Assembly: GCF_014189455.1 (NCBI RefSeq) | Contig: NZ_CP050296.1 | Span: forward strand, 7,056,067-7,120,066 | DNA from: Mesorhizobium huakuii | GTDB lineage: Bacteria; Pseudomonadota; Alphaproteobacteria; Rhizobiales; Rhizobiaceae | Reading direction: 5' to 3' | Length of the DNA stretch: 64,000 bases | Part shown: positions 25,678-52,520 of the stretch, piece after piece | Position numbering within the stretch: position 1 is the stretch's first letter | Layout of the letters: the number at the start of each line of letters is the position of its first letter | Notes under the pieces: generated by a model | Told to the model about the DNA's origin: nothing | What the model saw: only the letters and a program-made list of their open reading frames with translations | Databases searched by the model: none | Program-made: the position numbers and the translations under genes

Positions 25678-27255
25678 ATGACCGCCGCCCTACAATCTGC
25701 AGAACCGGGCCAGGCACCCGACCGTGCCCGCCGTGGCGGCCGCGCTGGAAAACGCGCCGGAGGCTCGGCCGCCTTCGAGCAGCCGGCTTTCCGCCAGTTG
25801 AAGAACCCGCTGACGCCGACCAGGCTGGTGTCGGACGACGAGCTGGAATCGATCCACCTCGCTTCCTTGCGCGTGCTCAGGGAGATCGGCGTCGACGTCC
25901 TGCACGACGAAGCTCGCCGCATCATGAAAACGCATGGCGCGGATGTGCGCGAAGGTAGCGAGCGCGTGCGCTTCGACAGCGACATGATCCTCGATTTGAT
26001 CTCGAACTGCCCGTCGGAATTCACGCTGCATGCCCGCAACCCTGCGCACAACGTCCGCTTCGGCGGCAACAATGTGATCCTGTCGATGATGGCGTCGGCG
26101 CCGAACTGCTCCGACATCGATCGCGGCCGCCGACCCGGCAACCAGGCGGACTACCGCAACTTCCTGCGCCTGGCGCAGATGCACAACATCCTGAACTGCA
26201 CCGGTGGCTATCCGGTCGAGCCGACCGACATCCATCCGTCGGTCCGCCACCTCGAATGCATCCGCGACCTCGCCACGCTGACCGACAAGGTGTTCCACAT
26301 CTATTCGCTCGGCAAGGAGCGCAATGTCGACGGCATCGAGATCACCCGGATCGCGCGCGGCATCAGCCACGAGCAACTGCTCGAGGAGCCGTCCGTCTTC
26401 ACCATCATCAACACCAACTCGCCGCTCAAGCTCGACGTGCCGATGATGGAAGGCATCATCCAGATGTCGAGCAAGGGCCAGGTCGTTGTCGTCACGCCCT
26501 TTACCCTGTCGGGTGCGATGGCGCCGGTCACCATCGCCGGCGCGCTGGTGCAGCAGAACGCCGAGGCACTGTCCGGCATCGCCTTTGCCCAGATGGTGCG
26601 CAAGGGCGCGCCTGTCGGCTATGGCGGCTTCACCTCCAATGTCGACATGAAGTCCGGCTCCCCGGCCTTCGGCACGCCCGAATATATGAAGGCGCAGCTC
26701 GTCGGCGGCCAGCTTGCCCGCCGCTACAATATCCCCTACCGCACCTCCAACACTTGCGCCGCCAACACGGTCGACGCGCAGGCCGCCTATGAGAGCGTGT
26801 TCTCGCTGTGGGGCGCCATCCAGGGCGGCGGCAATCTGATGATGCACGGCGCCGGCTGGCTCGAAGGCGGCCTGCGCTGCTCCTACGAAAAGACCATTCT
26901 GGACATCGATCTGTTGCAGATGGTGGCCGAATTCCTGACCCCGCTCGACCTGTCCGACGAGGCGCTCGGCTTCGACGCCATCCAGTCGGTCGGCCCCGGC
27001 GGCCATTTCTTCGGCACCCAGCACACGCAGGACCGCTACAAGACCGCCTTCTACTCGCCGATCCTGTCCGACTGGCGCAATTTCGAGACCTGGGCGGAAG
27101 CCGGATCGCCGACGGCGATGGAAAAGGCCAACAGGGTGTGGAAAGAACGGCTGGCATCCTATGACGAGCCCTACATGGACCCGGCGATCCGCGAGGAGCT
27201 CAACGATTTCGTCCAGAAGCGCACAGCCGAAGGCGGCGCGCCGACCGATTTTTGA
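25678..27255 (+). CDS. MttB-superfamily methylamine:corrinoid methyltransferase 1 (non-pyrrolysine)
   Basis: The ATG at 25678 has GAGGA five bases upstream, and an ATG at 25666 lacks a site. The 525-residue protein belongs to the trimethylamine methyltransferase superfamily (COG5598), a TIM-barrel fold that moves a methyl group from a quaternary or tertiary amine to the cobalt of a corrinoid protein. Family signatures include HEQLLEEPSVFTIINTNSPL, MAPVTIAGALVQQNAEAL, GAGWLEGGLRCSYEKTILD and GPGGHFFGTQHTQDRYKTAFY. No in-frame amber codon is present, so this is not a pyrrolysine enzyme. Characterised non-pyrrolysine members use glycine betaine, carnitine or proline betaine. The first 40 residues are basic and low-complexity. 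It heads a plus-strand run with a dimethylglycine-dehydrogenase-like gene, which makes glycine betaine an attractive but unproven substrate. Confidence 0.9.
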   Translation: MTAALQSAEPGQAPDRARRGGRAGKRAGGSAAFEQPAFRQLKNPLTPTRLVSDDELESIHLASLRVLREIGVDVLHDEARRIMKTHGADVREGSERVRFDSDMILDLISNCPSEFTLHARNPAHNVRFGGNNVILSMMASAPNCSDIDRGRRPGNQADYRNFLRLAQMHNILNCTGGYPVEPTDIHPSVRHLECIRDLATLTDKVFHIYSLGKERNVDGIEITRIARGISHEQLLEEPSVFTIINTNSPLKLDVPMMEGIIQMSSKGQVVVVTPFTLSGAMAPVTIAGALVQQNAEALSGIAFAQMVRKGAPVGYGGFTSNVDMKSGSPAFGTPEYMKAQLVGGQLARRYNIPYRTSNTCAANTVDAQAAYESVFSLWGAIQGGGNLMMHGAGWLEGGLRCSYEKTILDIDLLQMVAEFLTPLDLSDEALGFDAIQSVGPGGHFFGTQHTQDRYKTAFYSPILSDWRNFETWAEAGSPTAMEKANRVWKERLASYDEPYMDPAIREELNDFVQKRTAEGGAPTDF

Positions 27256-27308
27256 TCATCCGTGTTGTTGATGAACTGATCTTTCGTATGGATTTGATGA
27301 ACGGTCGA

Positions 27309-27447
27309 CCCCCACTCCGTCGAGCTGCGCTCGACACCTCTCCCCGATCGACGGGGGAGAGGAAGGGCGCGAAGCGATCTCAGCTGGCTCCCTTCCTCTC
27401 CCTCCGGGAGGGAGAGGTGGCGCCGCGAAGCGGCGACGGAGTGGGGG
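27309..27447. repeat. Intergenic inverted-repeat element with 14-bp perfect ends
   Basis: CCCCCACTCCGTCG at 27309-27322 is repeated inverted at 27434-27447. Inside are further paired arms (CCTCTCCC...GGGAGAGG twice). This is a second class of rhizobial intergenic repeat. It separates the MttB-family gene from the DUF559 gene, whose likely GTG start lies in its right arm. Confidence 0.75.
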
Positions 27448-27902
27448 AAGCCGCTGGTCAAACCCGCAGTCGCCGCAAAACGGGCACCACCCAGCGAGCC
27501 AGAAAACTCAGGCAAGGTGACAACCAGGCCGAAGCACTGCTTTGGCTTGAGTTAAAAGCCCGCAAACTTGGCGGCTACAAGTTCACGCGCCAGTTTTCCA
27601 TCGGACCTTTCTTCGCAGACTTCGCCTGCCGCGAAAAATGGCTCGTCGTCGAACTCGACGGCTCACAACACGCCGACAGTTCCTATGACGGCCGCCGCGA
27701 CGACTTCATGCGCGCTCAAGGCTATTCGATCCTGCGTGTCTGGAGCCATGAAGTCCTGAAACAGCGTACTTCCGTCTGTGAAACCATTCTTGCCGTGCTT
27801 GACGGCAGGCTGGCCGAAGGCACCATTGTCTCCGACCTTCGTTTTGTCTTCACACCGCGCTCATCCGATTCAATTTCTCTAAAAACGGACCTATCTTCAT
27901 GA
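27441..27902 (+). CDS. DUF559 (Vsr-like endonuclease fold) protein
   Basis: The recognisable domain reads KLRQGDNQAEALLWLELKAR..GYKFTRQFSIGPFFADFAC, then KWLVVELDGSQH and YSILRVWSHEVLKQ, the PD-(D/E)XK-like core of DUF559 proteins related to very-short-patch repair endonucleases. The start is uncertain: the GTG at 27441 gives 153 residues and lies in the intergenic repeat. The stop overlaps the ATG of the next gene (ATGA). Such genes are often found as stray passengers in rhizobial genomes, and a role in the surrounding pathway is unlikely. Confidence 0.8.
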   Translation: MGEAAGQTRSRRKTGTTQRARKLRQGDNQAEALLWLELKARKLGGYKFTRQFSIGPFFADFACREKWLVVELDGSQHADSSYDGRRDDFMRAQGYSILRVWSHEVLKQRTSVCETILAVLDGRLAEGTIVSDLRFVFTPRSSDSISLKTDLSS

Positions 27903-30469
27903 AATCCCACGTAAAAGCGGTTGTCATCGGCGGTGGTGTCGTCGGCTGCTCGGTGCTCTATCACCTGGCCAAGGCCGGCTGGACCGACATCATGCTGATC
28001 GAGCGCTCGGAGCTCACCTCCGGCTCGTCCTGGCACGCGGCGGGCGGCTTCCATACGCTGAACGGCGATCCCAACGTCGCCAAGCTGCAGGCCTACACCG
28101 TGCAGCTCTACAAGGAGATCGAGGAAATCTCCGGCCAGTCCTGCTCGCTGCATCTTACGGGCGGCGTCATGATGGCCGATACACCGGAACGCATGGACTT
28201 CCTACGCCTGGCCCACGCCAAGGGCCGCTATCTCGGCATGGACACCGAGCTGATCACGCCGTCCGAAGCCAAGGCGATGTTCCCGCTGATGGACGAAAAG
28301 AACTTCGTCGGCGCCATGTGGGACCCGGTCGAAGGTCATCTCGACCCATCCGGCACCACGATTGCCTACTCCAAGGCGGCCAAGAAGCTCGGCGCCGAGA
28401 TCGTGCTGCGCAATCGCGTCGTCGACCTGACGCAGCAGCCGGACGGCACCTGGAACGTCGTCACCGAGCAGGGCACGGTCCACGCCGAGCATGTCGTCAA
28501 CTGCGGCGGCCTGTGGGCGCGCGAGATCGGCCGTATGGTCGGCGTCGAACTGCCGGTTCTGGCCATGGAGCACATGTACCTGCTCACCGAGCCGATGCCG
28601 GAGGTCGAGGAGTTCAACAAGTCGACCGGCCGCGAAATGATCGGCGTGCTCGACTTCAAGGGCGAGATCTACACCCGCCAGGAGCGCAACGGTATCCTGC
28701 TCGGCACCTACGAAAAGGCCTGCAAGCCATGGTCGCCGGTCAACACGCCATGGGATTTCGGCCATGAACTGCTGCCGCCGGATCTCGATCGCATCGCGCC
28801 ATCGCTGGAAATCGGCTTCAAGCATTTCCCCGGCATCGAGAAGGCCGGCATCAAGCAGATCATCAACGGTCCCTTCACCTTCGCGCTCGACGGCAACCCG
28901 CTGGTCGGCCCGGTGCAGGGCCTGACCAATTTCTGGTGCGCTTGCGCCGTCATGGCTGGCTTCAGCCAGGGCGGCGGCGTCGGCCTCGCCCTGTCCAACT
29001 GGATGGTGCATGGCGATCCGGGCTTCGACGTCTGGGGCATGGATGTCGCCCGCTTCGGCGAATGGGCCGGCCTGCGCTACACCAACGCCAAGGTGCGCGA
29101 AAACTATTCGCGCCGCTTCTCTATCCGCTTCCCCAATGAGGAACTGCCGGCGGCACGTCCTGCGCAGACGACGCCGCTCTACGACACCATGCTCGCCAAC
29201 AACGCCGTCATGGGCGACAGCTGGGGCCTGGAAACCCCGCTGTGGTTCGCGCCGAAGGGTAAGGAGCCGAAAGACATCGTCTCCTTCCACCGCTCCAACG
29301 ATTTCGGCCCGATCCGCGAGGAAGTGCGCGCCACGCGCGAGCGCGTCGGCGTCACCGAGATCGCCAACTTCGCCAAATACGAAGTGTCGGGACCGGGTGC
29401 GGAAGAGTTCCTCAACCGGCTGATGACCAACCGCATGCCGAAGACCGGCCGTATTGTGCTCACCCCGATGATCAACGAATTCGGCAAGCTGATCGGCGAC
29501 TTCACCATTGCCAAGGCCGGTGAAGACCGCTTCATGATCTGGGGCTCGTCGGCGGCGCAGAAATACCACATGCGCTGGTTCGAAAAGCACCTGCCGAAGG
29601 ATGGTTCGGTGCGCATCCACCGCTTCGACCAGACACTGGTCGGTCTGTCGATCGCCGGGCCGAGATCGCGTGACCTGCTGCAGAAGCTGGTCGACGTCGA
29701 CATTTCGACCAAAGCCTTCCGCTTCATGGATTTCCGCGAGATGGCGGTCGGCGGCGCGCCGTGCCTGGTCAACCGCATCACCTATACCGGCGATCTCGGC
29801 TACGAAATCTGGATGGCGCCGGCCTACCAGCGCCTGGTGTACAAGGCGATCAAGGACGCCGGCGAGGAGTTTGGTCTCGTCGATTTCGGCATGCGCGCCC
29901 TGCTGTCCATGCGCCTGGAAAAGAACTTCCCGACCTGGTTTCGCGAGCTGCGGCCGATCTACGGCCCGTTCGAAGGCTCGATGGACCGCTTCATCAAGCT
30001 GGAGAAGAACGATTTCATCGGCCGTGAGGCCGCCGCCAAGGAACAGGCGGAAGGTCCAAAGCTGCGCCGCGTCTCCTTCATCGTGGATGCGGCGGACGCC
30101 GATGTCATGGGCGACGAGCCGATCTGGGCCAAGGTCAGCAAGGACTACGGCACAGTGGAAAAGCCGCATGGCTACGGTGCGCCGCGCTTCGACACATCAG
30201 GCAAGGAAGTGCGTGGTTCCAAGGCCGCGGAAGGCGCTTCCGCCGTGCGCGGTATTGTCGACGGCGACTGGCGCGTGGTCGGCTGGGTCACGTCGGGCGG
30301 TTATGCGCATTATGTCCAGAAGTCGATGGCGCAAGGCTATGTGCCGGCAGCACTGGCCGAGGACGAAAGCGCCGGACTGTTCGAGATCGAGATCCTCGGA
30401 CATCGGCGTCCGGCGCGCATCAATGTCGAGGCACCTTTCGATCCGAGCGGCGAGAAGATGCGGACCTGA
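27899..30469 (+). CDS. Dimethylglycine dehydrogenase-like FAD/GcvT oxidoreductase 1
   Basis: An 856-residue protein with an N-terminal DAO-type FAD domain (VVIGGGVVGCSVLYHL) and GSSWHAAGG, in which His 46 matches the covalent-FAD His of dimethylglycine and sarcosine dehydrogenases. A middle linker and a GcvT-like tetrahydrofolate domain follow from about residue 430 (TPMINEFGKLIGDFT, GDLGYEIWMA, MRLEKNFPTW), with a GcvT C-terminal barrel at the end. Enzymes of this architecture oxidatively demethylate N-methyl amino acids and pass the carbon to tetrahydrofolate as 5,10-methylene-H4folate. It follows MttB-1 on the same strand, so it may process the product left after the first corrinoid-dependent demethylation. 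The exact N-methyl substrate is not certain. Confidence 0.9.
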   Translation: MKSHVKAVVIGGGVVGCSVLYHLAKAGWTDIMLIERSELTSGSSWHAAGGFHTLNGDPNVAKLQAYTVQLYKEIEEISGQSCSLHLTGGVMMADTPERMDFLRLAHAKGRYLGMDTELITPSEAKAMFPLMDEKNFVGAMWDPVEGHLDPSGTTIAYSKAAKKLGAEIVLRNRVVDLTQQPDGTWNVVTEQGTVHAEHVVNCGGLWAREIGRMVGVELPVLAMEHMYLLTEPMPEVEEFNKSTGREMIGVLDFKGEIYTRQERNGILLGTYEKACKPWSPVNTPWDFGHELLPPDLDRIAPSLEIGFKHFPGIEKAGIKQIINGPFTFALDGNPLVGPVQGLTNFWCACAVMAGFSQGGGVGLALSNWMVHGDPGFDVWGMDVARFGEWAGLRYTNAKVRENYSRRFSIRFPNEELPAARPAQTTPLYDTMLANNAVMGDSWGLETPLWFAPKGKEPKDIVSFHRSNDFGPIREEVRATRERVGVTEIANFAKYEVSGPGAEEFLNRLMTNRMPKTGRIVLTPMINEFGKLIGDFTIAKAGEDRFMIWGSSAAQKYHMRWFEKHLPKDGSVRIHRFDQTLVGLSIAGPRSRDLLQKLVDVDISTKAFRFMDFREMAVGGAPCLVNRITYTGDLGYEIWMAPAYQRLVYKAIKDAGEEFGLVDFGMRALLSMRLEKNFPTWFRELRPIYGPFEGSMDRFIKLEKNDFIGREAAAKEQAEGPKLRRVSFIVDAADADVMGDEPIWAKVSKDYGTVEKPHGYGAPRFDTSGKEVRGSKAAEGASAVRGIVDGDWRVVGWVTSGGYAHYVQKSMAQGYVPAALAEDESAGLFEIEILGHRRPARINVEAPFDPSGEKMRT

Positions 30470-30478
30470 GGTTCGGCC

Positions 30479-31834
30479 ATGGACAGCGCGGCGCCAAAAG
30501 GCAATTTCGGCCGCCATCGCAAGATCATGCCGTTCGAGCCCGGCTCGATCGAGGAATTGCGTGAAGGCTCCCGCCAGAAAGCGGCGTCACTCAACCAGCA
30601 TGTGCTGGGCTATGGCGTGCAGGCAGAAGCGGAATGGGCGGCGGCGGGCATTGCCGCCTCCGACCTTCCGGCGATGCGGAAATACCGGCTGGAGCGCATC
30701 CGCGCCGAACTGAAGCGCCGCGGCTATGCCGGCGCCCTGCTCTACGATCCCGTCAACATCCGCTACGCCACCGATAGCACCAACATGCAGCTGTGGGTGG
30801 CGCACAATCCGACACGGCATTGCTTCGTCGCCACCGAGGGACCGGTGGTGCTGTTCGACTATTTCTCCTGCGAGCATCTGTCAGACCATTCCGGCGTCGT
30901 CGACGAGGTGCGACCGGCCGTCTCGTGGATGTATCTCTACGGCGGCGAACTCACGGACCAAAAGGTCCGCCGCTGGGCCGCCGGCATTGCCGATCTTGTG
31001 AGGGAACATGGCGGCGGCAACAGCCGCATCGCCGTCGACCACCTCAATCCCGAAGGGGTCGAGGAACTGGCTCGACTTGGTATCTCCATCGGCAATGGCG
31101 AAGCGGTGATGGAGAATGCGCGGCTGATCAAATCGCCGGACGAAATCCTCGCCATGCGCCGCGCCATCGTCGCTTGCGAGGCGGCGATGGGCGAGATGGA
31201 GCAGGCGCTAAAACCCGGCATCTCCGAGAACGAATTGTGGGCGGAACTGCATCGCGGCAACATTGCGCGCGGCGGCGAATGGATCGAAACGCGCCTGCTG
31301 GCGTCAGGCCCGCGCACCAATCCGTGGTTCCAGGAATGCTCGTCGCGCGTGATCGAAGCCGGCGACCTCGTCGCCTTCGACACCGACCTGATCGGCCCTT
31401 ACGGCTTCTGCGCCGACCTGTCGCGCACCTGGCTGTGCGGCGATAACAAGCCGACCAACGAACAGCGCGACCTGTTTCGCATTGCCGCCGACCAGATCGA
31501 ACACAACACTGAATTGATGCGACCCGGCATCTCGTTCCGCGACCTTGTCGAACGCTCGGCCGTACCGCCGGGAGATTGCTTTCCGACCCGCTACGGCGTG
31601 CTCTATCACGGCGTCGGCCTGGCTGACGAATACCCGACGCTGCCGCATGCCGGCGACTGGACGCCAGACACGCCGGACGGCGTGCTCGAACCCGGCATGG
31701 TCCTGTGCGTGGAAAGCTATATCGGCCGGCTGGGCGGCAGAGAGGGCGTCAAGATCGAAGAGCAGATCCTGATCACCGAGACCGGCAACGAGCAGCTTTC
31801 AACCTACCCGTTGGATACGCGGCTGCTCGGCTAA
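30479..31834 (+). CDS. M24-fold enzyme, DddP-like
   Basis: The 451-residue protein has the pita-bread fold of M24 aminopeptidase P/creatinase. All five metal ligands are visible: two Asp in AFDTDLIGPYGFCADLSRTW, His in YHGVGL, Glu in CVESYIG and Glu in VKIEEQILITE. Beyond the fold it shares with the DMSP lyase DddP the stretches NIRYATDSTNMQLW, NIARGGEWIETRLL and SGPRTNPWFQEC, recalled from the Roseovarius protein. True DddP cleaves DMSP to dimethylsulfide and acrylate, while other members hydrolyse creatine, ectoine or X-Pro peptides. It starts nine bases after the preceding flavoprotein and must be co-transcribed. A role on an onium compound is inferred. Confidence 0.8.
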   Translation: MDSAAPKGNFGRHRKIMPFEPGSIEELREGSRQKAASLNQHVLGYGVQAEAEWAAAGIAASDLPAMRKYRLERIRAELKRRGYAGALLYDPVNIRYATDSTNMQLWVAHNPTRHCFVATEGPVVLFDYFSCEHLSDHSGVVDEVRPAVSWMYLYGGELTDQKVRRWAAGIADLVREHGGGNSRIAVDHLNPEGVEELARLGISIGNGEAVMENARLIKSPDEILAMRRAIVACEAAMGEMEQALKPGISENELWAELHRGNIARGGEWIETRLLASGPRTNPWFQECSSRVIEAGDLVAFDTDLIGPYGFCADLSRTWLCGDNKPTNEQRDLFRIAADQIEHNTELMRPGISFRDLVERSAVPPGDCFPTRYGVLYHGVGLADEYPTLPHAGDWTPDTPDGVLEPGMVLCVESYIGRLGGREGVKIEEQILITETGNEQLSTYPLDTRLLG

Positions 31835-34970: not shown

Positions 34971-35993
34971 ATGACGACTACCAATCCGATCGATGCCTTG
35001 CTGGCTGAAAAGGGTGTGCTGCTGGCCGATGGCGCCACGGGCACCAACCTGTTCGCGATGGGCCTGGAGGCCGGCGAGGCACCGGAACTGCTGAACGAGA
35101 CGGCGCCCGGCACCATCACCAGCCTGCACCAGAATTTCGTCGATGCCGGCGCCGACATCATCCTGACCAACTCCTTCGGCGGCACCCGCCACCGGCTGAA
35201 ACTCCACCATGCGCAGGACCGCGTGCATGCGCTCAACAAGCGCGCCGCCGAGATTGCCCGGGCCGTTGCCGACAAGGCCGGCCGCAAGGTGATCGTTGCC
35301 GGCTCTGTCGGCCCGACCGGCGAATTGCTGGTGCCGCTTGGCGCCATGACCTATGACGAGGCGGTCGACGCTTTCGCCGAGCAGATCGAGGGTCTCAAGG
35401 AAGGCGGCGCGGAAGTCGCCTGGATCGAAACCATGTCGGCGCCCGACGAAATCCGCGCGGCCGCCGAAGCGGCGATCCGCGTCGGCCTGCCCTACACCTA
35501 TACCGGCTCCTTCGACACCGCCGGCCGCACCATGATGGGCCTGCTGCCGAAGGATATCCATGGCGTCGTTGACGGGCTGTCCGAGGCACCGCTCGGCGTT
35601 GGCGCCAATTGCGGCGTCGGTGCCTCCGATATCCTGGCCTCGCTGCTCGACATGACTGAGGCGAAGCCGCTGGCGACCGTGATCGTCAAGGGCAATTGCG
35701 GCATTCCCGAATTCCGCGGCACCGAGATCCATTATTCCGGCACGCCGGAACTGATGGCCGACTATGTCCGCCTCGCCGTCGATGCCGGTGCGAAAATCGT
35801 CGGCGGCTGCTGCGGCACCTCGTTCCAGCATCTTGCCGCCATGCGCAAGGCGCTCGACGCCCACACTAGGGCGGATCGTCCGACTGTAGAGACGATCGTC
35901 GAGCGCATCGGTCCGATGCGCAACAAGGTGGCGACGGAAAACACCGCCGAGACCAGCGAAGCCCGCCGCGAGCGTCGCCGCAGCCGGGCCTGA
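34971..35993 (+). CDS. bmt: Betaine:homocysteine S-methyltransferase
   Basis: A 340-residue TIM-barrel enzyme of the Hcy-binding family. MTTTNPIDALLAEKGVLLADGATGTNLF opens the barrel, and zinc ligands are in GANCGVG (Cys) and GGCCGTS (two Cys). It moves a methyl group from glycine betaine to homocysteine, giving dimethylglycine and methionine. This function has been shown for the Sinorhizobium meliloti homologue. A basic ERRRSRA tail ends the protein. It is flanked upstream by the XRE regulator and a palindromic operator. In this window it would compete with the corrinoid route for the same donor. Confidence 0.93.
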   Translation: MTTTNPIDALLAEKGVLLADGATGTNLFAMGLEAGEAPELLNETAPGTITSLHQNFVDAGADIILTNSFGGTRHRLKLHHAQDRVHALNKRAAEIARAVADKAGRKVIVAGSVGPTGELLVPLGAMTYDEAVDAFAEQIEGLKEGGAEVAWIETMSAPDEIRAAAEAAIRVGLPYTYTGSFDTAGRTMMGLLPKDIHGVVDGLSEAPLGVGANCGVGASDILASLLDMTEAKPLATVIVKGNCGIPEFRGTEIHYSGTPELMADYVRLAVDAGAKIVGGCCGTSFQHLAAMRKALDAHTRADRPTVETIVERIGPMRNKVATENTAETSEARRERRRSRA

Positions 35994-38654: not shown

Positions 38655-38656
38655 GG

Positions 38657-40266: not shown

Positions 40267-40962
40267 TCAACCGGCGGCCAATGCGAAGCTCGCCATATGG
40301 AAGGCCTGGACATCAGGCGGATAGCGATATTCCGTGCCATAGGGACAGGCATTGCGGTCGAGGCAACCGCCGCTCCGGCATGGTCCGCCATTCGCTCCCC
40401 GAACATGCGCAAGGCAGGCCTGATAGGCGAACCCTTCCCTGGAGTATGCATCGACCGGGCAGGATTTCAGGCAGGGTTTTGCGACACAGGCGTCGCAGAG
40501 ATGGATCATCTCGCCCTGCTGCGGAAGCGCGATCTCGTCCTCGAACAGCAGCGCGCCGCGATAGGCATGCCAAAGCCCGTATTGCGGGTGCATGAGAATA
40601 CCAAGCGGCGACGGTTTCAGTCCCTCGGCCCGCATCGCCCATTGCTGGAACGGCAGATAGGGTTTGTCGGACGGTGAAACGGCGCGTGCCCCGAATGCCG
40701 CCGCCACATCGCCGATGACCTGCCGTGACCAGCTGTCGAGCGGATTGGCGATTTGCTGTGGCTGCCTTTCGCGCCAGCGCAGGAAATGCGGCCAGGGCGC
40801 CGCACCCGCTTGCCCGACCAGCAGCACGGATTTTGCCGGTACGCCCGAGGCGCCATGCGCGGCGTCGTCGTTATCGGAAAAAACAAAACCGCCGCGCAGG
40901 ATGAGGCCGTTGGCGCCAAGCGCGGCCGTGATCCCTTCGATCATGCCGCGCGCAAGAATCAT
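40267..40962 (-). CDS. Eight-cysteine ferredoxin-like protein
   Basis: A 231-residue protein. Its first 150 residues are cluster-free and end near GLWHAYRGALLFEDEIALP. Cysteines follow at 156, 159, 164, 168, 183, 195, 200 and 206 (CDACVAKPCLKSCPVDAY and a later CRSGGCLDRNACPYG). This resembles the C-terminal double-[4Fe-4S] part of QueG-like proteins. It lies 89 bp after MttB-2 on the same strand and shares a transcript with it, so it could be an electron donor for corrinoid reactivation. Its own family role is not known. Confidence 0.72.
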   Translation of the reverse strand: MILARGMIEGITAALGANGLILRGGFVFSDNDDAAHGASGVPAKSVLLVGQAGAAPWPHFLRWRERQPQQIANPLDSWSRQVIGDVAAAFGARAVSPSDKPYLPFQQWAMRAEGLKPSPLGILMHPQYGLWHAYRGALLFEDEIALPQQGEMIHLCDACVAKPCLKSCPVDAYSREGFAYQACLAHVRGANGGPCRSGGCLDRNACPYGTEYRYPPDVQAFHMASFALAAG

Positions 40963-41051: not shown

Positions 41052-42626
41052 TCAAGTGAAGGCGTCGGGCATCGACCCCTTCTTCTTGGCGATGAACTCC
41101 TTCAGCGCTTCGTCGATGCTCGGGTCGAGATGCGGCGCCTCATAGCTTTCCAGCCAGCGGCGGGCGAGTTCGTTGGCGCGCTGCGGCGCGGTCTTCTCGC
41201 CCTCGGCCAGCCACTGCTCGTAGGAATTGTTGTCGGCAATGTTGGAGCGGTAGAACGCCGTCTGGAAATTGGCCTGGGTGTGGTCGCAGCCAAGATAGTG
41301 GCTGCCCGGGCCGACCTGGCGGATGGCGTCCATCGCCTGGCCGTTTTCCGACAGGTCGACGCCCTCGGAGAATTTTTGGGTCATGCCGAGCTGGTCGATG
41401 TCCATCATGAATTTTTCGTAGCAGGACGCCAGCCCGCCTTCGAGCCAGCCGGCCGAGTGAAGGACAAAGTTGGTGCCGGCAAGGATCGTCGAGTTCAGCG
41501 TGTTGGCGCTTTCATAGGCCGCCTGCGCATCTGGAACCTTGGACGCGCAGAGCGAACCACCGGTGCGGAACGGCAGGCCGAGCCGGCGTGCGAGCTGTGC
41601 GGCGCCATAGGACACCAGCGACGGCTCCGGCGTGCCGAAGGTCGGCGCGCCGGACTGCATCGAGATCGACGAGGCGAAGGTGCCGAACAGCACCGGCGCG
41701 CCCGGCCGGATCAGCTGCGTGAACGATGCGCCAGCCAGCACTTCGGCCAGAACCTGCGTCAGCGTGCCAGCCACCGTCACCGGGCTCATCGCGCCGGCCA
41801 GGATGAACGGGGTGACGATGCAGGCCTGGTTGTGGCGCGAATAAACCTTCAGCGCGCCCAGCATGGTCTCGTCGAACACCATCGGCGAGTTGGCGTTGAT
41901 CAGGCTGGTCAGCACGGTGTTGTTTTCGACGAAATCGTCGCCGAAGACGAGCTTGGCCATGGCGACGGTGTCTTCGGCGCGTTCCGGCGCCGTCACCGAG
42001 CCCATGAACGGCTTGTCGGAATATTTGATGTGGCTGTAGACCATGTCGAGGTGGCGCTTGTTGACCGGCACGTCGACCGGCTCGCACACCGTGCCGCCCG
42101 AATGGTGGATCGACGGCGCCATATAGGCGAGTTTCACGAAATTCCGGAAATCCTCGATCGTCGCGTAGCGGCGGACGCCGTCGAGGTCGCGTACGAAGGG
42201 CGGGCCATAGACCGGCGCGAAAACAGTGGCGTTGCCGCCAATCTGCACCGAGCGTTCGGAATTGCGGGCGTGCTGGGTATAGACGGACGGTGCGGTCTTC
42301 AGCAGCGAACGGGAAAGCCCCTTCGGGAAGTGCACGCGCTCGCCCTTGACGTCTGCGCCGGCCTCTTTCCACAGCTGCAACGCTTCGGCGTCATCGCGAA
42401 AAATGATGCCGATCTCCTCGAGCACCGTATCGGTGTTCTTCTCGATCAGTGCGAGGCCCTCCTCGTCGAGCACCTCATAGACGTTGATCTTGCGCTTGAT
42501 GTAGGTGAGCTGGGTGCCGGGTCCGCCGCCGGAGCGCGCCGCGCGCCTGGCCGCTGCTCCGCCGCTCGCACCGCGCCCACGCCGCGCGTTTGACGCTTCC
42601 TGGTCGACTGCCGCGTGTTCGCTCAT
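41052..42626 (-). CDS. MttB-superfamily methyltransferase 2 (non-pyrrolysine)
   Basis: The ATG at 42626 (MSEHAAVDQEASNARRGRGA) has GGGAAGAG six bases upstream. The 524-residue protein is a divergent paralogue of the gene at 25678: LHSAGWLEGGLASCYEKFMMDIDQLGM and GPGSHYLGCDHTQANFQTAFYRS match the same core positions. There is no amber codon, so pyrrolysine is absent. A basic Arg/Ala-rich N-terminus of about 40 residues is shared with the first copy. It faces the corrinoid protein gene across a 289-bp gap, an arrangement expected of a cognate methyltransferase/corrinoid pair. Substrate is unknown; glycine betaine or another quaternary amine is likely by family. Confidence 0.9.
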   Translation of the reverse strand: MSEHAAVDQEASNARRGRGASGGAAARRAARSGGGPGTQLTYIKRKINVYEVLDEEGLALIEKNTDTVLEEIGIIFRDDAEALQLWKEAGADVKGERVHFPKGLSRSLLKTAPSVYTQHARNSERSVQIGGNATVFAPVYGPPFVRDLDGVRRYATIEDFRNFVKLAYMAPSIHHSGGTVCEPVDVPVNKRHLDMVYSHIKYSDKPFMGSVTAPERAEDTVAMAKLVFGDDFVENNTVLTSLINANSPMVFDETMLGALKVYSRHNQACIVTPFILAGAMSPVTVAGTLTQVLAEVLAGASFTQLIRPGAPVLFGTFASSISMQSGAPTFGTPEPSLVSYGAAQLARRLGLPFRTGGSLCASKVPDAQAAYESANTLNSTILAGTNFVLHSAGWLEGGLASCYEKFMMDIDQLGMTQKFSEGVDLSENGQAMDAIRQVGPGSHYLGCDHTQANFQTAFYRSNIADNNSYEQWLAEGEKTAPQRANELARRWLESYEAPHLDPSIDEALKEFIAKKKGSMPDAFT

Positions 42627-42915: not shown

Positions 42916-43614
42916 ATGTCCGACGACGAGATCATCCTTTCTGAACTTTCCGACGACGAGTTGGTGCAGCAGATGCACGACGATCTCTATGACGGGTTGA
43001 AGGAAGAGATCGAGGAAGGCACGCGCATCCTTCTGGAGCGCGGCTGGGCGCCGTACAAGGTGCTGACCGAGGCGTTGGTCGAAGGCATGCGCATCGTCGG
43101 CGAGGATTTTCGCGACGGCATCCTGTTCGTTCCCGAAGTGCTGTTGTCCGCCAACGCAATGAAGGCCGGCATGTTCATCCTGCGTCCGCTGCTCGCCGCC
43201 ACCGGCGCGCCGAAGCAGGGCAAGATGGTCATCGGCACCGTCAAGGGCGACATCCACGACATCGGCAAGAACCTCGTCGGCATGATGATGGAAGGCGCCG
43301 GCTTCGACGTCATCGATCTCGGCATCAACAACGCGGTCGAGAAATATCTCGATGCGATCGAGCAGCATCAGCCCGACATTATCGGCATGTCGGCGCTTTT
43401 GACCACGACCATGCCCTACATGAAGGTCGTCATCGACACGATGAAGGAAAAGGGCATCCGCGACGACTATGTCGTGCTGGTCGGCGGCGCGCCGCTCAAC
43501 GAGGAGTTCGGCAAGGCCGTCGGCGCCGACGCCTATTGCCGCGATGCGGCGGTGGCGGTCGAGACCGCCAAGGACTTCATGAAGCGCAAGCATAACGTGC
43601 GCGCTTCCGCCTGA
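42916..43614 (+). CDS. Corrinoid (cobalamin-binding) methyl-carrier protein
   Basis: A 232-residue protein of the MtbC/MttC type. Residues 10-100 form the helical cap domain (DGLKEEIEEGTRILLERG, FVPEVLLSANAMKAGM). The Rossmann-like B12-binding domain follows with D112-x-H114-x-x-G117 (His 114 is the lower cobalt ligand), SALLTTTM and VGGAPLN. It carries a methyl group on cobalt between MttB enzymes and the methyl-H4folate transferase. AGGAG lies 10 bases before ATG 42916. The gene is divergent from MttB-2 and probably serves both MttB copies, since no second corrinoid protein is seen here. Confidence 0.95.
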   Translation: MSDDEIILSELSDDELVQQMHDDLYDGLKEEIEEGTRILLERGWAPYKVLTEALVEGMRIVGEDFRDGILFVPEVLLSANAMKAGMFILRPLLAATGAPKQGKMVIGTVKGDIHDIGKNLVGMMMEGAGFDVIDLGINNAVEKYLDAIEQHQPDIIGMSALLTTTMPYMKVVIDTMKEKGIRDDYVVLVGGAPLNEEFGKAVGADAYCRDAAVAVETAKDFMKRKHNVRASA

Positions 43615-43891: not shown

Positions 43892-44518
43892 TTGGTCAGG
43901 ACGCAAAAAACGAAACCGAATCAAACAGACAGGCTGCTCGTCATCGCCTGCGGGATGATTGCGCGCGAGGTCTTGGCCGTCAAGGAACAGCTCGGGCTCA
44001 CTCACCTTGAACTGACCTGTTTGCCGGCGGAGTTTCATTTCTATCCCGACCGCATCGCGCCCGCCATGGACAAGGCGATCGAGAAGGCCAAGGCGGAAGG
44101 TTACGAGCACATTTTCGTCGGCTATGCCGATTGCGGCACTGGCGGCCTGCTCGACCGCGTCATCGAGAAGCATGGCGTCGAGCGCATGGCCGGCCCGCAT
44201 TGCTTTGCCTTCTATCAAGGCATGGAGGCCTACGCGAAAATCGCCGCCGACGACATGATGTCCTTCTACATGACGGACTTTCTGTGCCGTCAGTTCGATG
44301 CCTTCTTCATGAAGCCGCTCGGCCTCGACAAGCACCCGGAGCTGATCAAGGACTATTTCGGCAACTACGAGAAACTGGTCTATCTCGCCCAGACCGACGA
44401 CCCGGAACTCGACAAGGTCGCGGAAAAGGCCGCCGCTATGCTCGGCCTCGCCTATGAGCGCCGGGCGACCGGCTATGGCGACCTGACGGCTGAAATGGCG
44501 CGGGCTGCGGTCGCCTGA
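43892..44518 (+). CDS. DUF1638 protein
   Basis: Up to 208 residues: core DRLLVIACGMIAREVLAVKEQLG, LPAEFHFYPDRIAPAMDKAI and GYADCGTGGLLDRVIEKHGVERM match DUF1638, a family of unknown biochemistry often found next to MttB-type methyltransferases. The start is uncertain: a TTG at 43892 without a good ribosome binding site is the only upstream option, and the next ATG cuts into the conserved core. Conserved Cys and His residues suggest a metal site. Context suggests a helper for the corrinoid system. Confidence 0.75.
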   Translation: MVRTQKTKPNQTDRLLVIACGMIAREVLAVKEQLGLTHLELTCLPAEFHFYPDRIAPAMDKAIEKAKAEGYEHIFVGYADCGTGGLLDRVIEKHGVERMAGPHCFAFYQGMEAYAKIAADDMMSFYMTDFLCRQFDAFFMKPLGLDKHPELIKDYFGNYEKLVYLAQTDDPELDKVAEKAAAMLGLAYERRATGYGDLTAEMARAAVA

Positions 44519-47047: not shown

Positions 47048-47250
47048 GCTTTGTCAGCCCTGAGTCACACAATGCCAGACGGCTTTTTCGGTGCGCCGAC
47101 CCTGCCTCCTGCGCGCGCCGCGGACGAATAAACGCACCTTTCATTTTACGACATTGAAATGCGTCGCTTTTGAATGCGCGCGCGTCGTCCCATAACAAGC
47201 GGCCCCACTGCGCATGCGGCAATGCTCGATAGTTCGAGGAGCGAGAATTC

Positions 47251-47553
47251 ATGGCCGATCTTATCGTCGTCTACTGGCGCGACATTCCTGCCCAGGTCAT
47301 CGTCAAGAAGGGCCGGCAGAACGCCAAGCGCGAACTGCCGCTGCGCTTCACCGAGGCCATCGACATGTGCGCCATGCGCACCGGCGCCGGCGGCACCGAC
47401 GACTATCTGGCCGAATGGCGCAAGGCCGATCCGGTTCCGGTCGGCGACGATCTCGAAGCTGAGGTCGAAAAGGCTTTTCAGGACCTCGACACGAAATATG
47501 ACCGCGAGCGGCTGGTCGCTCTGGTCAAGGCAGGCGGCAAAGACAATGTCTGA
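47251..47553 (+). CDS. Small virulence-factor-family protein, first gene of the MetV/MetF operon
   Basis: A 100-residue soluble protein, MADLIVVYWRDIPAQVIVKKGRQNAKREL. The family is labelled virulence factor in databases. Here it is cotranslated with a MetV-like protein (8-bp overlap) and lies at the head of a folate operon, so a role in methylene-H4folate reductase assembly or regulation is more likely than virulence; this is inference. Confidence 0.75.
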   Translation: MADLIVVYWRDIPAQVIVKKGRQNAKRELPLRFTEAIDMCAMRTGAGGTDDYLAEWRKADPVPVGDDLEAEVEKAFQDLDTKYDRERLVALVKAGGKDNV

Positions 47554-48142
47554 GACAAATCCGGCGGTTACCCAGGCCACTCTGGTCAAGAAGGCAGCGC
47601 CGAAGTCCGACTACAAGCCGGCCGACGTGTCGCCGCAGCGGCGCGTGCAGCGCTCTTTCGCGGTGAGATTGTGGTCGATCCGGCATTCGCGCCTGCTCGA
47701 ATGGTTCTATTCCCGTTTCGCCGACATGTTTCTGCTCCTCCACCCTCTGTGGAAGGGCATCGGCTACGGTCGCGTCGAGGCCCCGATCAAATTCGTCGAA
47801 AAGCGCGTGAAGGGCTTCATGTTCGACTGCCGCATGTGCGGCCAGTGCATCCTGTCGTCGACCGGCATGTCATGCCCGATGAACTGCCCCAAGCAGCTTC
47901 GCAACGGTCCCTGCGGCGGCGTTCGCGCCAACGGCAATTGCGAAGTCGAGCCCGACATGCCCTGCGTCTGGGTCAAGGCCTGGGAAGGTTCGCAGAACAT
48001 GGTCAACTCTGACAAGATCCTGACCGTGCAGAAGCCGGTCGACCAGTCGTTGCGCGAAACCTCGGCCTGGCTGCGGGTCACCGCGCAGGCGGCGGCCGCC
48101 CGTGAAGCCGCGGCTGCCCCAAAGACCGGAGCCGCCGCATGA
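47546..48142 (+). CDS. MetV-like methylene-H4folate reductase C-terminal domain protein
   Basis: A 198-residue protein of the MTHFR_C (PF12225-type) family. Cysteines at 95, 98, 101, 110, 114, 123, 132 and 140 (CRMCGQCILSSTGMSCPMNC) form a metal- or cluster-binding core. In acetogens the equivalent MetV pairs with MetF to make a functional methylene-H4folate reductase. It overlaps the upstream gene by 8 bp and its stop overlaps the MetF start by 4 bp. Confidence 0.87.
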   Translation: MSETNPAVTQATLVKKAAPKSDYKPADVSPQRRVQRSFAVRLWSIRHSRLLEWFYSRFADMFLLLHPLWKGIGYGRVEAPIKFVEKRVKGFMFDCRMCGQCILSSTGMSCPMNCPKQLRNGPCGGVRANGNCEVEPDMPCVWVKAWEGSQNMVNSDKILTVQKPVDQSLRETSAWLRVTAQAAAAREAAAAPKTGAAA

Positions 48143-49231
48143 CCGCCCGTCAGCGCGACGAGAACCCGGCCGGCATTCATCTGCCACTCGATCCCCTGCC
48201 CGGCCACTCGTCCCGCGGCCGGCTGGAGCGCGTGCTGCGGCGCGGCGAGTTCGCGGTGACGACCGAGCTCAACCCGCCCGACAGCGCCGACCCCGAGGAC
48301 GTCTACAACCGGGCCAAGATCTTCGACGGCTGGGTCGACGCCATCAACGCCGTCGATGCCTCGGGCGCCAACTGCCACATGTCCTCGGTCGGCATCTGCG
48401 CGCTTTTTGACCCGCATGGGCTATGCCCCGATCATGCAGATCGCTTGCCGCGACAAGAACCGCATCGCCATCCAGGGCGACGTGCTGGGCGGCGCAGCGA
48501 TGGGTGTCGCCAACATGCTGTGCCTGACCGGCGACGGCGTGCAGGCCGGCGACCAGCCCGGCGCCAAGCCGGTGTTCGATCTCGATTCCATGTCGCTGCT
48601 CGAAACCGTCCGCATCATGCGCGACAATGGCAAATTCCTGTCCGGCCGCAAGCTGACGACGCCGCCGCAGGTCTTCCTGGGTGCTGCTGTCAACCCGTTC
48701 GCGCCGCCCTTCGATTTCCGCCCGATCCATCTCGGCAAGAAGATCGCCGCCGGCGCACAGTTCGTGCAGACGCAGTATTGTTTCGACGTGCCGATGTTCA
48801 GGACCTTCATGCAGAAGGCGCGCGATCTTGGCCACACCGAAAAAGTGTTCGTCCTGTGCGGCGTCGGCCCCCTAGCTTCGGCCAAGACCGCCAAGTGGAT
48901 CCGCTCCAACGTGCCGGGTATCCACATTCCGGACGCCATCATCAAGCGGCTGGAGGGCGCCCAGGACCAGAAGAAGGAAGGCAAGCAGCTCTGCATCGAC
49001 ATCATCAACGAGGTGAAGGAAATCCCCGGTATCTCGGGCATCCATGTGATGGCCTACCGGCAGGAGGAATATGTCGCCGAGATCGTCGATGAATCGGGCG
49101 TGCTCAAGGGCCGCCAGCCCTGGAAGCGCGAAATCCGCCGCGACGACCAGATGGTTGCCGACCGGCTCGATCATATACTGCACGACGAGATTACCGAAAC
49201 GCAGGTGGACATGGTAAAGACCGCGCACTAA
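48139..49231 (+). CDS. Methylenetetrahydrofolate reductase (MetF family), one frameshift
   Basis: Two frames join at a T-run near 48410 (five T instead of four), giving 363 residues. The fold is a FAD-binding TIM barrel with FAVTTELNPPDSADP (substrate/FAD Glu), LCLTGDGVQAGD (the GD motif) and QFVQTQYCFDVPMF. Methylene-H4folate reductase interconverts 5-methyl- and 5,10-methylene-H4folate. With a corrinoid methyl input it would run in the oxidative direction to feed methyl groups into the one-carbon pool. The partner MetV-like subunit is encoded just upstream. Confidence 0.88.
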
Positions 49232-49270
49232 GCGCGGCCGATCACCAGACCCTGGAACGAAACCAGAGAC

Positions 49271-49293
49271 GATATAAAGAAGCACTTTATATC
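49271..49293. promoter_or_regulatory. Perfect palindrome upstream of the methyl-H4folate:corrinoid methyltransferase
   Basis: GATATAAAG-AAGCA-CTTTATATC is a perfect 9-bp inverted repeat with a 5-base spacer, ending 16 bases before the ATG at 49310 and one base before the ribosome binding site. It matches the repeat upstream of bmt (34916-34937). Confidence 0.75.
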
Positions 49294-49309
49294 AAGGCGG
49301 AGAGACTTC

Positions 49310-50284
49310 ATGACCCGGACCATTGTCGCCTCGGCGACACGAGAGATCATCATCGGCTTCGACCAGCCCTTCTGCGTCATCGGCGAGCGCATCAACCCGA
49401 CCGGCCGCAAGAAGCTCGCCGCCGAGATGATCGCCGGCAATTTCGAGACCGTCATCAAGGACGCGTTGGAGCAGGCCGCCTGCGGCGCCACCATGCTCGA
49501 CGTCAATGCCGGCGTCACCGCCGTCGACCCCAATGCGACCGAGCCGGCGCTGCTGGTGCAGACGCTGGAGATCGTCCAGGGCCTCGTCGACCTGCCGCTG
49601 TCGATCGACAGCTCGGTTACCGCCGCGATCGAGGCAGCACTCAAGGTCGCCAAGGGCCGCCCGCTGGTCAACTCCGTCACCGGCGAGGAGGAAAAACTCG
49701 AAGCCATCCTGCCGCTGATCAAGAAATACAACGTGCCGGTCGTCGCCATCTCCAATGACGAGACCGGCATTTCGATGGATCCGGACGTGCGCTTCGCCGT
49801 CGCCAAGAAGATCGTCCAGCGCTGTGCCGATTTCGGCATTCCCGCTCATGACGTCGTCGTCGACCCGCTGGTCATGCCGATCGGCGCGCTGGGTGACGCC
49901 GGCCGCCAGGTGTTCGCGCTGCTGCGTCGGCTGCGCGAGGAGCTCAAGGTCAACACCACCTGCGGCCTGTCCAACATTTCGTTCGGCCTGCCGCATCGCC
50001 ACGGCATCAACGCCGCCTTCATCCCCATGGTGATCGGCGCCGGCATGACCTCGGCGATCATGAACCCGGTGCGGCCGCAGGAAATGGAAGCCGTGCGCGG
50101 CGCCAATGTGCTCAACGGCACCGACGAGAACTGCACCAACTGGATCCGAACCTACAAGGACTACAAGCCGGCCGAAGGCGGCCATGCGGTCGCGGCGCCG
50201 ACGGCGGTCAACGCCCCTGGCGAGGGCGCCGGCAACGGTGGCCGCCGCCGCGGCGGACGAGAGGCCCGGATGGGCCGGGGATAA
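49310..50284 (+). CDS. Methyltetrahydrofolate:corrinoid methyltransferase (MtrH/AcsE type)
   Basis: A 324-residue pterin-binding TIM-barrel protein: GERINPTGRKKLAAEM, ATMLDVNAG, LPLSIDSSV, VDPLVMPIGA and NTTCGLSNISFGLPHR are the family's ordered motifs. It moves a methyl group between corrinoid-bound cobalt and tetrahydrofolate. Here it can take the methyl group loaded by MttB and give 5-methyl-H4folate to MetF/MetV. It follows metF by 78 bp on the same strand and is preceded by a perfect operator palindrome. The tail is glycine/arginine-rich. Confidence 0.93.
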   Translation: MTRTIVASATREIIIGFDQPFCVIGERINPTGRKKLAAEMIAGNFETVIKDALEQAACGATMLDVNAGVTAVDPNATEPALLVQTLEIVQGLVDLPLSIDSSVTAAIEAALKVAKGRPLVNSVTGEEEKLEAILPLIKKYNVPVVAISNDETGISMDPDVRFAVAKKIVQRCADFGIPAHDVVVDPLVMPIGALGDAGRQVFALLRRLREELKVNTTCGLSNISFGLPHRHGINAAFIPMVIGAGMTSAIMNPVRPQEMEAVRGANVLNGTDENCTNWIRTYKDYKPAEGGHAVAAPTAVNAPGEGAGNGGRRRGGREARMGRG

Positions 50285-50294
50285 GCGCGCAATC

Positions 50295-52520
50295 GTGAAT
50301 TCACCTGCCAACATCACCGATCCACTCGTGCTGTTCATGCCGTCGGGCAAGCGCGGGCGGTTTCCAGTCGGCACGCCGGTGCTCGATGCCGCGCGCCAGC
50401 TTGGCGTCTATGTCGAGAGCGTGTGCGGCGGCCGCGCCACGTGCGGGCGCTGCCAGATCGAGGTGCAGGAAGGCAATTTCGCCAAGCACAAGATCGTCTC
50501 CTCCAACGACCACATCTCGCCCAAGGGACCCAAGGAAGAGCGCTACGAACGCGTGCGCGGCCTGCCTGAACGGCGCCGCCTCTCCTGCTCGGCGCAGATC
50601 CTCGGCGACCTCGTCATCGACGTGCCGCAGGACACCGTCATCAATGCGCAGACCATCCGCAAGGATGCCGACACCAGGGTGATCGCCCGCGATACGGCAA
50701 TCCGCATGTGCTATGTCGAAATCGAAGAGCCCGACATGCACAAGCCGCTCGGCGATCTCGACCGGCTGAAGATCGCGCTGATGAAGGATTGGGGCTTCAA
50801 GAACCTCGAATTCGACTTCTACCTGCTGCCGCAGGTGCAGGGCATCCTGCGCAAGGGCAACTGGACCGCCACCGCCGCCATCCACAAGGATGCCGACAGC
50901 GATATCGCGCGTGTCATCGCGCTGTGGCCGGGCCTCAAGAACGAGGCCTATGGGCTGGCCTGCGATATCGGCTCGACCACCATCGCCATGCATCTGGTGT
51001 CGCTGCTGTCGGGCCGCGTCGCCGCCTCGTCCGGCACCTCGAACCCGCAGATCCGCTTCGGCGAGGATCTGATGAGCCGCGTCTCCTATGTGATGATGAA
51101 CCCGGACGGCCGCGAAGGCATGACGGTGGCCGTACGCGAAGCGATCTCCAGCCTTGTCGACAAGGTCTGCGCGGAAGGCAATGTCCAGCGCAACGACATT
51201 CTGGATTCCGTCTTCGTCGGCAATCCGATCATGCACCATCTGTTCCTCGGCATCGATCCGACCGAACTCGGCGGTGCCCCCTTCGCGCTCGCCGTCTCGG
51301 GCGCGGTGCGCATCAAGGCCTCCGACATCGGCCTCAAGCTCAACCAGGGTGCCCGCCTCTACATGCTGCCTTGCATTGCCGGCCATGTCGGCGCCGACGC
51401 GGCGGCGGTGACGCTGTCCGAAGGCCCGCATCGCCAGGACGAGATGATGCTGATCGTCGACGTCGGCACCAATGCCGAGATCGTGCTTGGCAATCGTGCG
51501 CGGGTCGTGGCGGCCTCTTCTCCGACCGGTCCGGCTTTCGAGGGTGCCGAAATCTCCGGCGGCCAGCGTGCCGCGCCCGGCGCCATCGAGCGTGTGCGCA
51601 TCGACCCCGACACGCTGGAACCCAAATACCGCGTCATCGGTTCGGAACTGTGGTCCGACGAACCGGGCTTCCTCGACAGCGTGCAGGCGACCGGCGTGAC
51701 CGGCATCTGCGGCTCCGGCATCATCGAGATCGTGGCGGAAATGTATCTCGCCGGCATCATCTCGGAGGATGGCGTTGTCGACGGATCGCTTGCGGCACGC
51801 TCGCCACGGGTCGTCGCCAATGGCCGCACCTTCTCCTACGTGCTGAAGGAAGGCGAGCCGAAGATCACCATCACCCAGACCGACGTGCGCGCCATCCAGC
51901 TCGCCAAGGCCGCTCTTTATGCCGGCACCAAGCTCTTGATGGAAAAGCAGAACACCGAGCATGTCGACCGCATCCACTTCGCCGGCGCCTTCGGCTCGTT
52001 CATCGATCCGAAATACGCCATGGTGCTGGGCCTGATCCCCGACTGTGACCTCGACAAGGTTTCCGCCGTCGGCAACGCCGCGGGTGCCGGCGCACGCATG
52101 GCGCTCCTGAACCGCGGCTATCGCCGCGAGATCGAGGAGACGGTGAGCCAAATCGAGAAGATCGAGACCGCGCTGGAACCAAAATTCCAGGAGCATTTCG
52201 TCTACGCCATGGCGCTGCCCAACAAGGTCGACCCGTTCCCGAAACTGTCGGCGGCGGTGAAACTGCCGCCGCGCAAGACGGTAAGCGAGGACGGTGTCGC
52301 CGGCGACGCCGCCCCGCGCCGGCGCTCGCGCGAAGGCCACGCGGCAAGGCGCAGCCGGGGAATAGAAGCAACCTTCACAGGTCGCCTCGAAATCCCAAAC
52401 TCATTTGCATGCAAATGTTTCCGGATCGAACCGATCCGGAAACCAAAACGCTGTTTTCGCGAAATCCACCCGATACATGGCAGGCGCATTTACCCGGCAT
52501 CGAACGGCGGCCGAAGATAA
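50295..52520 (+). CDS. RACo-type corrinoid reductive activator (2Fe-2S, ASKHA domain)
   Basis: A GTG at 50295 is the likely start (VNSPANITDPLVLFMPSGKR). Cys 44, 50, 53 and 98 form a plant-type [2Fe-2S] cluster, followed by a linker and a large ASKHA ATPase domain (GLACDIGSTTIAMHLVSL, DVGTNAEIVLGN, GICGSGIIEIVAEMY). Such proteins use ATP to re-reduce Co(II) corrinoid that has been oxidised by accident. The C-terminal 50 residues after SREGHAARRSRG look unnatural and run into a palindrome upstream of the next gene. A one-base indel near 52350 that gave a stop at 52363 would be more typical of the family (about 690 residues), but I cannot prove it. Confidence 0.88.
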   Translation: MNSPANITDPLVLFMPSGKRGRFPVGTPVLDAARQLGVYVESVCGGRATCGRCQIEVQEGNFAKHKIVSSNDHISPKGPKEERYERVRGLPERRRLSCSAQILGDLVIDVPQDTVINAQTIRKDADTRVIARDTAIRMCYVEIEEPDMHKPLGDLDRLKIALMKDWGFKNLEFDFYLLPQVQGILRKGNWTATAAIHKDADSDIARVIALWPGLKNEAYGLACDIGSTTIAMHLVSLLSGRVAASSGTSNPQIRFGEDLMSRVSYVMMNPDGREGMTVAVREAISSLVDKVCAEGNVQRNDILDSVFVGNPIMHHLFLGIDPTELGGAPFALAVSGAVRIKASDIGLKLNQGARLYMLPCIAGHVGADAAAVTLSEGPHRQDEMMLIVDVGTNAEIVLGNRARVVAASSPTGPAFEGAEISGGQRAAPGAIERVRIDPDTLEPKYRVIGSELWSDEPGFLDSVQATGVTGICGSGIIEIVAEMYLAGIISEDGVVDGSLAARSPRVVANGRTFSYVLKEGEPKITITQTDVRAIQLAKAALYAGTKLLMEKQNTEHVDRIHFAGAFGSFIDPKYAMVLGLIPDCDLDKVSAVGNAAGAGARMALLNRGYRREIEETVSQIEKIETALEPKFQEHFVYAMALPNKVDPFPKLSAAVKLPPRKTVSEDGVAGDAAPRRRSREGHAARRSRGIEATFTGRLEIPNSFACKCFRIEPIRKPKRCFREIHPIHGRRIYPASNGGRR
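52394..52415 (-). promoter_or_regulatory. 22-bp motif, copy 1, upstream of the first DUF1127 gene
   Basis: On the minus strand TTTGCATG-CAAATGAGTTTGGG matches 20 of 22 bases of a motif at 55367-55388. It contains CATTTGCATGCAAATG (52402-52417), a perfect 16-bp palindrome, and lies 139 bases before the DUF1127 start. Confidence 0.5.

Follow-up and report, generated by a model that had tools for sequence, protein, structure and literature searches.

Gene content of the locus

Positions 25678 to 52520 of a 64,000-nucleotide stretch of Mesorhizobium huakuii DNA (contig NZ_CP050296.1; the whole stretch is called the window here) hold the genes of a corrinoid-dependent methyl-transfer system, in which methyltransferases of the MttB superfamily lie together with a stand-alone corrinoid protein, tetrahydrofolate (H4folate) enzymes and corrinoid reactivation proteins. 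The genome comprises 8.45 Mb in four contigs, and the region very probably encodes an MtgBCDE-type corrinoid hub in this aerobic rhizobium. The genes concerned are as follows.

25678..27255, plus strand: MttB-1, non-pyrrolysine MttB superfamily (PF06253, 658 bits, cut-off 25)
27899..30469, plus strand: dimethylglycine/sarcosine-dehydrogenase-like flavoprotein (DAO and GCV_T domains, Pfam)
30479..31834, plus strand: M24 protein closest to the dimethylsulfoniopropionate (DMSP) lyase DddP, role uncertain (NCBIfam)
34971..35993, plus strand: MtgE, Bmt-like homocysteine methyltransferase (PF02574; NF005718, 570 bits, cut-off 338)
40267..40962, minus strand: MMACHC/CblC-fold protein with eight invariant cysteines, candidate corrinoid-handling partner (predicted fold)
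41052..42626, minus strand: MttB-2, best candidate for MtgB, the glycine betaine methyltransferase (PF06253, 768 bits, cut-off 25)
42916..43614, plus strand: MtgC, stand-alone corrinoid protein and hub (PF02607 and PF02310)
43892..44518, plus strand: DUF1638 protein, putative role in cobalamin reactivation (PF07796, 85 bits)
47251..47553, plus strand: PF13769 protein of 100 amino acids, proposed partner of RamA (Pfam)
47546..48142, plus strand: MetV-type protein, C-terminal type of methylenetetrahydrofolate reductase (PF12225, in the open reading frame 47174-48142)
48139..49231, plus strand: MetF2-like methylene-H4folate reductase (PF02219)
49310..50284, plus strand: MtgD, methyl-H4folate:corrinoid methyltransferase of the AcsE/MetH type (PF00809)
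50295..52520, plus strand: RamA/RACo-type corrinoid activator (PF14574, PF17651, PF17650, Fer2)

The components of an MtgBCDE system are found here by domain: two non-pyrrolysine MtgB-type proteins, the stand-alone cobalamin protein MtgC, the pterin-binding MtgD and the homocysteine module MtgE, together with a RamA-like activator and the only DUF1638 match in the genome. The genome has six PF02310 matches, of which only MtgC lies in a short frame (251 amino acids), and MtgC scores below both NCBIfam MtgC cut-offs (211.6 against 370 and 173.9 against 310). The MetF2-like gene adjoins MtgD and has a frame change near 48.4 kb in the assembly, the gene being intact in all 11 relatives compared, and the break is probably an assembly error. 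One further MttB paralog (G000:C1:5493411-5494899) likewise appears as two overlapping pieces, as if frameshifted, and assembly error is the likely cause of both. Several genes lie within longer open reading frames, the likely starts being 25666 or 25678 for MttB-1 (longest frame from 25129), ATG 42626 for MttB-2 (from 42722), ATG 42916 for MtgC (from 42877), 47546 for MetV, and a position between 50295 and 50337 for RamA (from 50106).

Every gene class named in a preliminary description of this DNA has its match in Pfam or NCBIfam, although that description passed over the MtgE/BHMT-like, PF13769 and cysteine-rich MMACHC-like genes. Its assignment of the methyl-H4folate transferase to the MtrH type, the family to which MtgA belongs, is set aside, as MtgD matches only PF00809 and CdhD in Pfam (E <= 0.01) and PRK07535 in NCBIfam, with no MtrH model found at the limits used. 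A pyrrolysine-type MttB is also ruled out, the MttB matches being free of internal stops.

Other features of the window include a formyl-transferase-like protein (46266-47063) between the DUF1638 and PF13769 genes, which is kept in Sinorhizobium meliloti, a second dimethylglycine-dehydrogenase-like flavoprotein at 61203-63779, beyond the range listed, and a CobB/CobQ-type amidotransferase (PF07685, PF01656; 13400-14875) upstream of the cluster, probably a B12-synthesis gene. The window contains no tRNA and no Rfam RNA at the gathering score.

Conservation of the cluster

In a survey of 297 genomes from the order, 97 have DUF1638 and 95 have MttB, with both in 88, DUF1638 only in nine and MttB only in seven. 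Conservation across the Rhizobiales, which the preliminary description had left to be checked, is thus borne out: the core is a conserved cluster, and the joint occurrence of MttB and DUF1638 is not random. Gene neighbourhoods were compared in the 96 other genomes that carry DUF1638, using 100 stretches, each reaching up to 20 kb, that surround this gene. Homologs of window proteins are present in 92 of the genomes at the limits used; none is found round DUF1638 at these limits in the remaining four (G198, G215, G219, G236), genomes that also have no MttB match. MtgC is near DUF1638 in 86 genomes, MtgD in 64, RamA in 61, PF13769 in 59, MttB-2 in 47, MtgE in 44, the cysteine-rich gene in 25, the dimethylglycine-dehydrogenase-like gene in 23, MetF2 in 18 and MttB-1 in eight, all of which are lower bounds because many stretches are cut by contig ends.

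Gene order is also kept. Four Phyllobacterium loci carry MttB-1, the dimethylglycine-dehydrogenase-like gene, MtgE, the cysteine-rich gene, MttB-2, MtgC, DUF1638, PF13769, MtgD and RamA in this order, and the annotation of S. meliloti Ak57 shows an identical arrangement between bmt and the ASKHA protein, with the MetV gene in the same place. Paracoccus aminovorans has MttB-2, the MMACHC-like gene, MtgC, DUF1638, MetV, MetF2, MtgD and RamA. The view of the set as dispersed and mixed with unrelated genes therefore holds for this strain locally, but the set is not a scatter, because the same genes are packed together in other genomes; the cluster is conserved and the interspersed genes are largely local. 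The closest homologs of single proteins lie within the genus, with 96% identity for MttB-2 in Mesorhizobium metallidurans and, for MtgC, 98% in M. escarrei and 97% on a plasmid of M. onobrychidis. The latter plasmid, pOM4, carries its MtgC alone beside type IV secretion genes, the other window proteins being unmatched in the 24.7 kb covered. Six genomes of families f7 and f13 (G006, G012, G053, G089, G117, G142) have strong MttB matches and no DUF1638 match, so that another reactivation route may exist there.

A PF13769 protein linked to RamA

The small PF13769 protein encoded upstream of RamA is closely tied to the activator in its distribution. Of 289 Alphaproteobacteria genomes, 62 carry PF13769, 70 carry RACo and 61 carry both. 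Because the genomes share ancestry, a Fisher value for this association cannot be read as a true probability; counted by family, 33 have both, one has PF13769 only and four have RACo only. Seven of the nine genomes with RACo and no PF13769 score at or below 231 bits for RACo, but one of the nine (G537) carries the full core. The sole genome with PF13769 only (G553) has MtgC, DUF1638, PF13769 and MtgD in order on a contig of 6.8 kb that ends after MtgD, and its RACo gene may therefore be cut off. In 41 of the 62 genomes the PF13769 gene precedes RACo by no more than 8 kb, with both on one strand; in the others it lies farther away on one contig (eight) or on a different contig (12), or RACo is missing (one). 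At one locus (L049) the PF13769 and RACo domains are fused in a single frame of 769 amino acids with all domains over their cut-offs, the sole fusion among 77 hits. The predicted structure of the window protein is confident (predicted local distance difference test score, pLDDT, 92.7) and has no clear match in the PDB, and PF13769 is not named in any paper found by the literature search. From co-occurrence, position and fusion we infer that the PF13769 protein is a partner of RamA.

A cysteine-rich MMACHC-like protein beside MttB-2

The gene that adjoins MttB-2 encodes a cysteine-rich protein (40267-40962) whose predicted structure has the fold of MMACHC, and its S. meliloti homolog is annotated as a ferredoxin. 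Its Pfam MMACHC score of 14.6 bits (17.3 for a homolog) lies below the cut-off of 27. The closest known proteins are MMACHC/CblC, QueG and the reductive dehalogenases, from which the eight invariant cysteines and the below-cut-off MMACHC score set it apart; such an invariant cysteine set is not known as a feature of MMACHC. The eight cysteines probably hold Fe-S clusters. Among the papers listed by the literature search, none points to an MMACHC-like protein in a methyltransferase cluster. Both the presence of this protein beside MttB-2 and the tie between PF13769 and RACo/RamA seem unreported in the literature searched, and they are what is apparently new at this locus.

Methyltransferases and their substrates

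The genome has eight MttB genes, counted from nine PF06253 matches of which two are adjacent pieces. MttB-2 is the closest of the eight to the glycine betaine enzyme MtgB of Desulfitobacterium hafniense (45% identity), and betaine, the substrate guessed in the preliminary description, is therefore fair for MttB-2 and its likely substrate. The guess suits MttB-1 less well, as this protein is only 36% identical to the same enzyme and closer to four other paralogs (46-49%); MttB-1 and the six paralogs elsewhere may act on other methylated amines. MttB-2 also matches PDB 4yyc (970 bits over residues 44-556, with 422 bits for 2qne), an S. meliloti structure deposited as a ‘putative trimethylamine methyltransferase’ with no substrate given.

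Homologs of the dimethylglycine-dehydrogenase-like flavoprotein gene adjoin those of MttB-1 in the four Phyllobacterium loci. The M24 protein that follows it in the window scores 478 bits against the DddP equivalog cut-off of 600, and DddP-like homologs are found near MttB-1 or dimethylglycine-dehydrogenase-like genes in three Tepidamorphus-type loci (L126-L128).

Methionine synthesis in the genus

MtgC, MtgD and MtgE would together correspond, by analogy, to a split methionine synthase. The window genome also encodes an intact-looking MetH in a frame of 1299 amino acids with B12-binding and reactivation domains, and another contig has three incomplete matches to the reactivation domain of MetH (G000:C3:193886-195708). 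Among nine same-genus genomes including this one, PF02965 (MetH) is present in the window genome, G189, G224 and G240 and PF08267 (MetE) only in G240, and neither has a match in the other five (G064, G096, G123, G207, G279), core-MetE forms lying outside this search. The stretches from the eight relatives in the genus all contain MttB-2, MtgC, DUF1638, PF13769, MetF2, MtgD, RamA and the cysteine-rich gene. MtgE is seen in four of them (G064, G096, G207, G279), three stretches end before its place, and it is not seen in the stretch of G189. PF02965 is found in 14 of 30 hand-picked DUF1638-positive genomes. The set is thus accompanied by MetH in some genomes and not in others.

Comparison with known systems

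By domain the set matches a system published for aerobic Ruegeria and Phaeobacter, in which a single corrinoid hub feeds both betaine demethylation and methionine formation. The kind of system is already known from a recent description of marine bacteria, and the route is therefore not new in kind. Ruegeria pomeroyi (Mausz et al. 2025, PMC12478193) is likewise an aerobic alphaproteobacterium, with the same seven protein classes by domain, MetF2 adjoining MtgD and several MttB-type genes, whereas the window has nearly all of its genes in one region, two possible additions in the PF13769 and MMACHC-like genes, and a classical MetH in the same genome. The main text of that paper does not contain the words virulence, ferredoxin, hypothetical or Mesorhizobium; the literature search found no on-topic paper on betaine or cobalamin demethylation in Mesorhizobium. 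Phaeobacter inhibens (Price et al. 2018, PMC5764234) has in common three separate proteins that bear the homocysteine, pterin and B12 domains, the RamA-like protein and DUF1638, and differs in being reported without PF02965. The anaerobic MtgB-MtgC-MtgA system of D. hafniense (PMC12478193, PMC7154762) shares an MttB-superfamily enzyme and a corrinoid protein and the transfer of methyl to H4folate, but the H4folate enzyme of the window is of the PF00809/PRK07535 type and its MtgC is below the NCBIfam cut-offs for that family.

In R. pomeroyi, loss of mtgC or mtgD causes methionine auxotrophy, and the mutants fail to grow on betaine even when methionine is added (PMC12478193). Fitness data for P. 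inhibens indicate that the homocysteine, pterin and B12 proteins, the RamA-like protein and DUF1638 are needed for methionine (PMC5764234). By extension from this genetics of relatives, MtgC and MtgD may have a two-way role and the RamA-like and DUF1638 proteins may be needed in methionine synthesis. The demethylation route proposed in the preliminary description is thus the best reading, resting on mutants of a like gene set, but it tells only half of the story, as the set would correspond to a split methionine synthase as well. S. meliloti has RamA and DUF1638 beside a normal MetH, which the same study calls unexplained (PMC5764234).

Alternative explanations

It is improbable that methionine synthesis by a split enzyme, supported by reactivation proteins, is the main function of the region, with the MttB genes as passengers or acting on compounds unrelated to betaine. 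Nine DUF1638-positive genomes without an MttB match, four of which (G007, G020, G077, G085) still pair MtgC with DUF1638, and the five same-genus genomes with neither MetH nor MetE matches would fit such a system, but MttB and DUF1638 are both present in 88 of the 297 genomes, MttB-2 and MtgC share a stretch in 47 of 96, MetH is already present in this strain, and marine MtgB-type proteins are reported to increase on betaine (PMC12478193). Also unlikely is the demethylation of betaine by MtgE/Bmt alone, with the corrinoid genes serving a different substrate, for example DMSP, carnitine or proline betaine. MtgE exceeds the NCBIfam betaine-homocysteine methyltransferase cut-off, purified P. inhibens Bmt is reported to use betaine and DMSP (PMC12366255), and a DddP-like gene lies near MttB-1; against this, R. 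pomeroyi cannot grow on betaine without mtgC and an S. meliloti bhmt mutant cited by Mausz et al. still grows on betaine in the presence of methionine (both PMC12478193), and MttB-2 is the member of the eight nearest the D. hafniense betaine enzyme. That the genes are neighbours by the coincidence of a large genome, with no joint system, is extremely improbable: the window does contain interspersed sigma factor, VWA, desaturase and hydrolase genes, but the set itself is found clustered across many further families and genera, and this synteny speaks against chance.

Several points weigh against a corrinoid hub that links betaine demethylation with methionine synthesis. The folate exit may be lost through the broken MetF-like frame unless the break is an assembly error, and MetF2 homologs are near DUF1638 in only 18 of the 96 genomes at the identity limit used. 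The likeness to the R. pomeroyi proteins is at the level of domain class and may fall short of one-to-one orthology. Since the strain has an intact-looking MetH, methionine need not be why it keeps the set. A Mesorhizobium alhagi mttB mutant, the paralog being unspecified, is described without a salt phenotype (PMC4302635). Purified P. inhibens Bmt is reported to make methionine from betaine or DMSP without B12 (PMC12366255), which conflicts with MtgE as a pure module, and a conflict in print stands between Bmt/MtgE as a module of the corrinoid synthase (PMC12478193) and as an independent betaine/DMSP methyltransferase (PMC12366255).

Proposed mechanism and implications

In the corrinoid hub reading, MttB-2, likely with betaine, MttB-1 and the six paralogs would pass methyl groups to Co(I) on the single MtgC, from which MtgD would transfer them to H4folate, and MetV and MetF2 would oxidise methyl-H4folate for one-carbon metabolism, while the dimethylglycine-dehydrogenase-like enzymes would continue betaine breakdown from dimethylglycine. 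In the reverse direction, MtgD, MtgC and MtgE would make methionine. RamA and DUF1638 would rescue oxidised Co(II), the PF13769 protein would assist RamA, and the MMACHC-like protein may load, dealkylate or reduce the corrinoid. What is observed here is the gene content, its conservation, the co-occurrence and a predicted fold, while the substrates and the parts played by the PF13769 and MMACHC-like proteins are inferred. We regard as evenly balanced the fuller proposal that in aerobes the oxygen-sensitive Co(I) hub is kept active by two so far unrecognised components, PF13769 acting with RamA and the MMACHC/CblC-like Fe-S protein loading or repairing the corrinoid on MtgC, and that some rhizobia of the genus depend on the whole set as their sole methionine synthase.

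Taken together, the betaine and methionine hub recently described from marine bacteria is seen here to form a conserved cluster in plant-associated bacteria of the soil, and some species of this lineage have no MetH or MetE match. The link between PF13769 and RamA provides a sharp, testable prediction on the reactivation of corrinoid proteins in aerobes, and the MMACHC-like protein, if its proposed role is true, could represent a bacterial equivalent of the B12 chaperone known from humans, working beside a methyltransferase.

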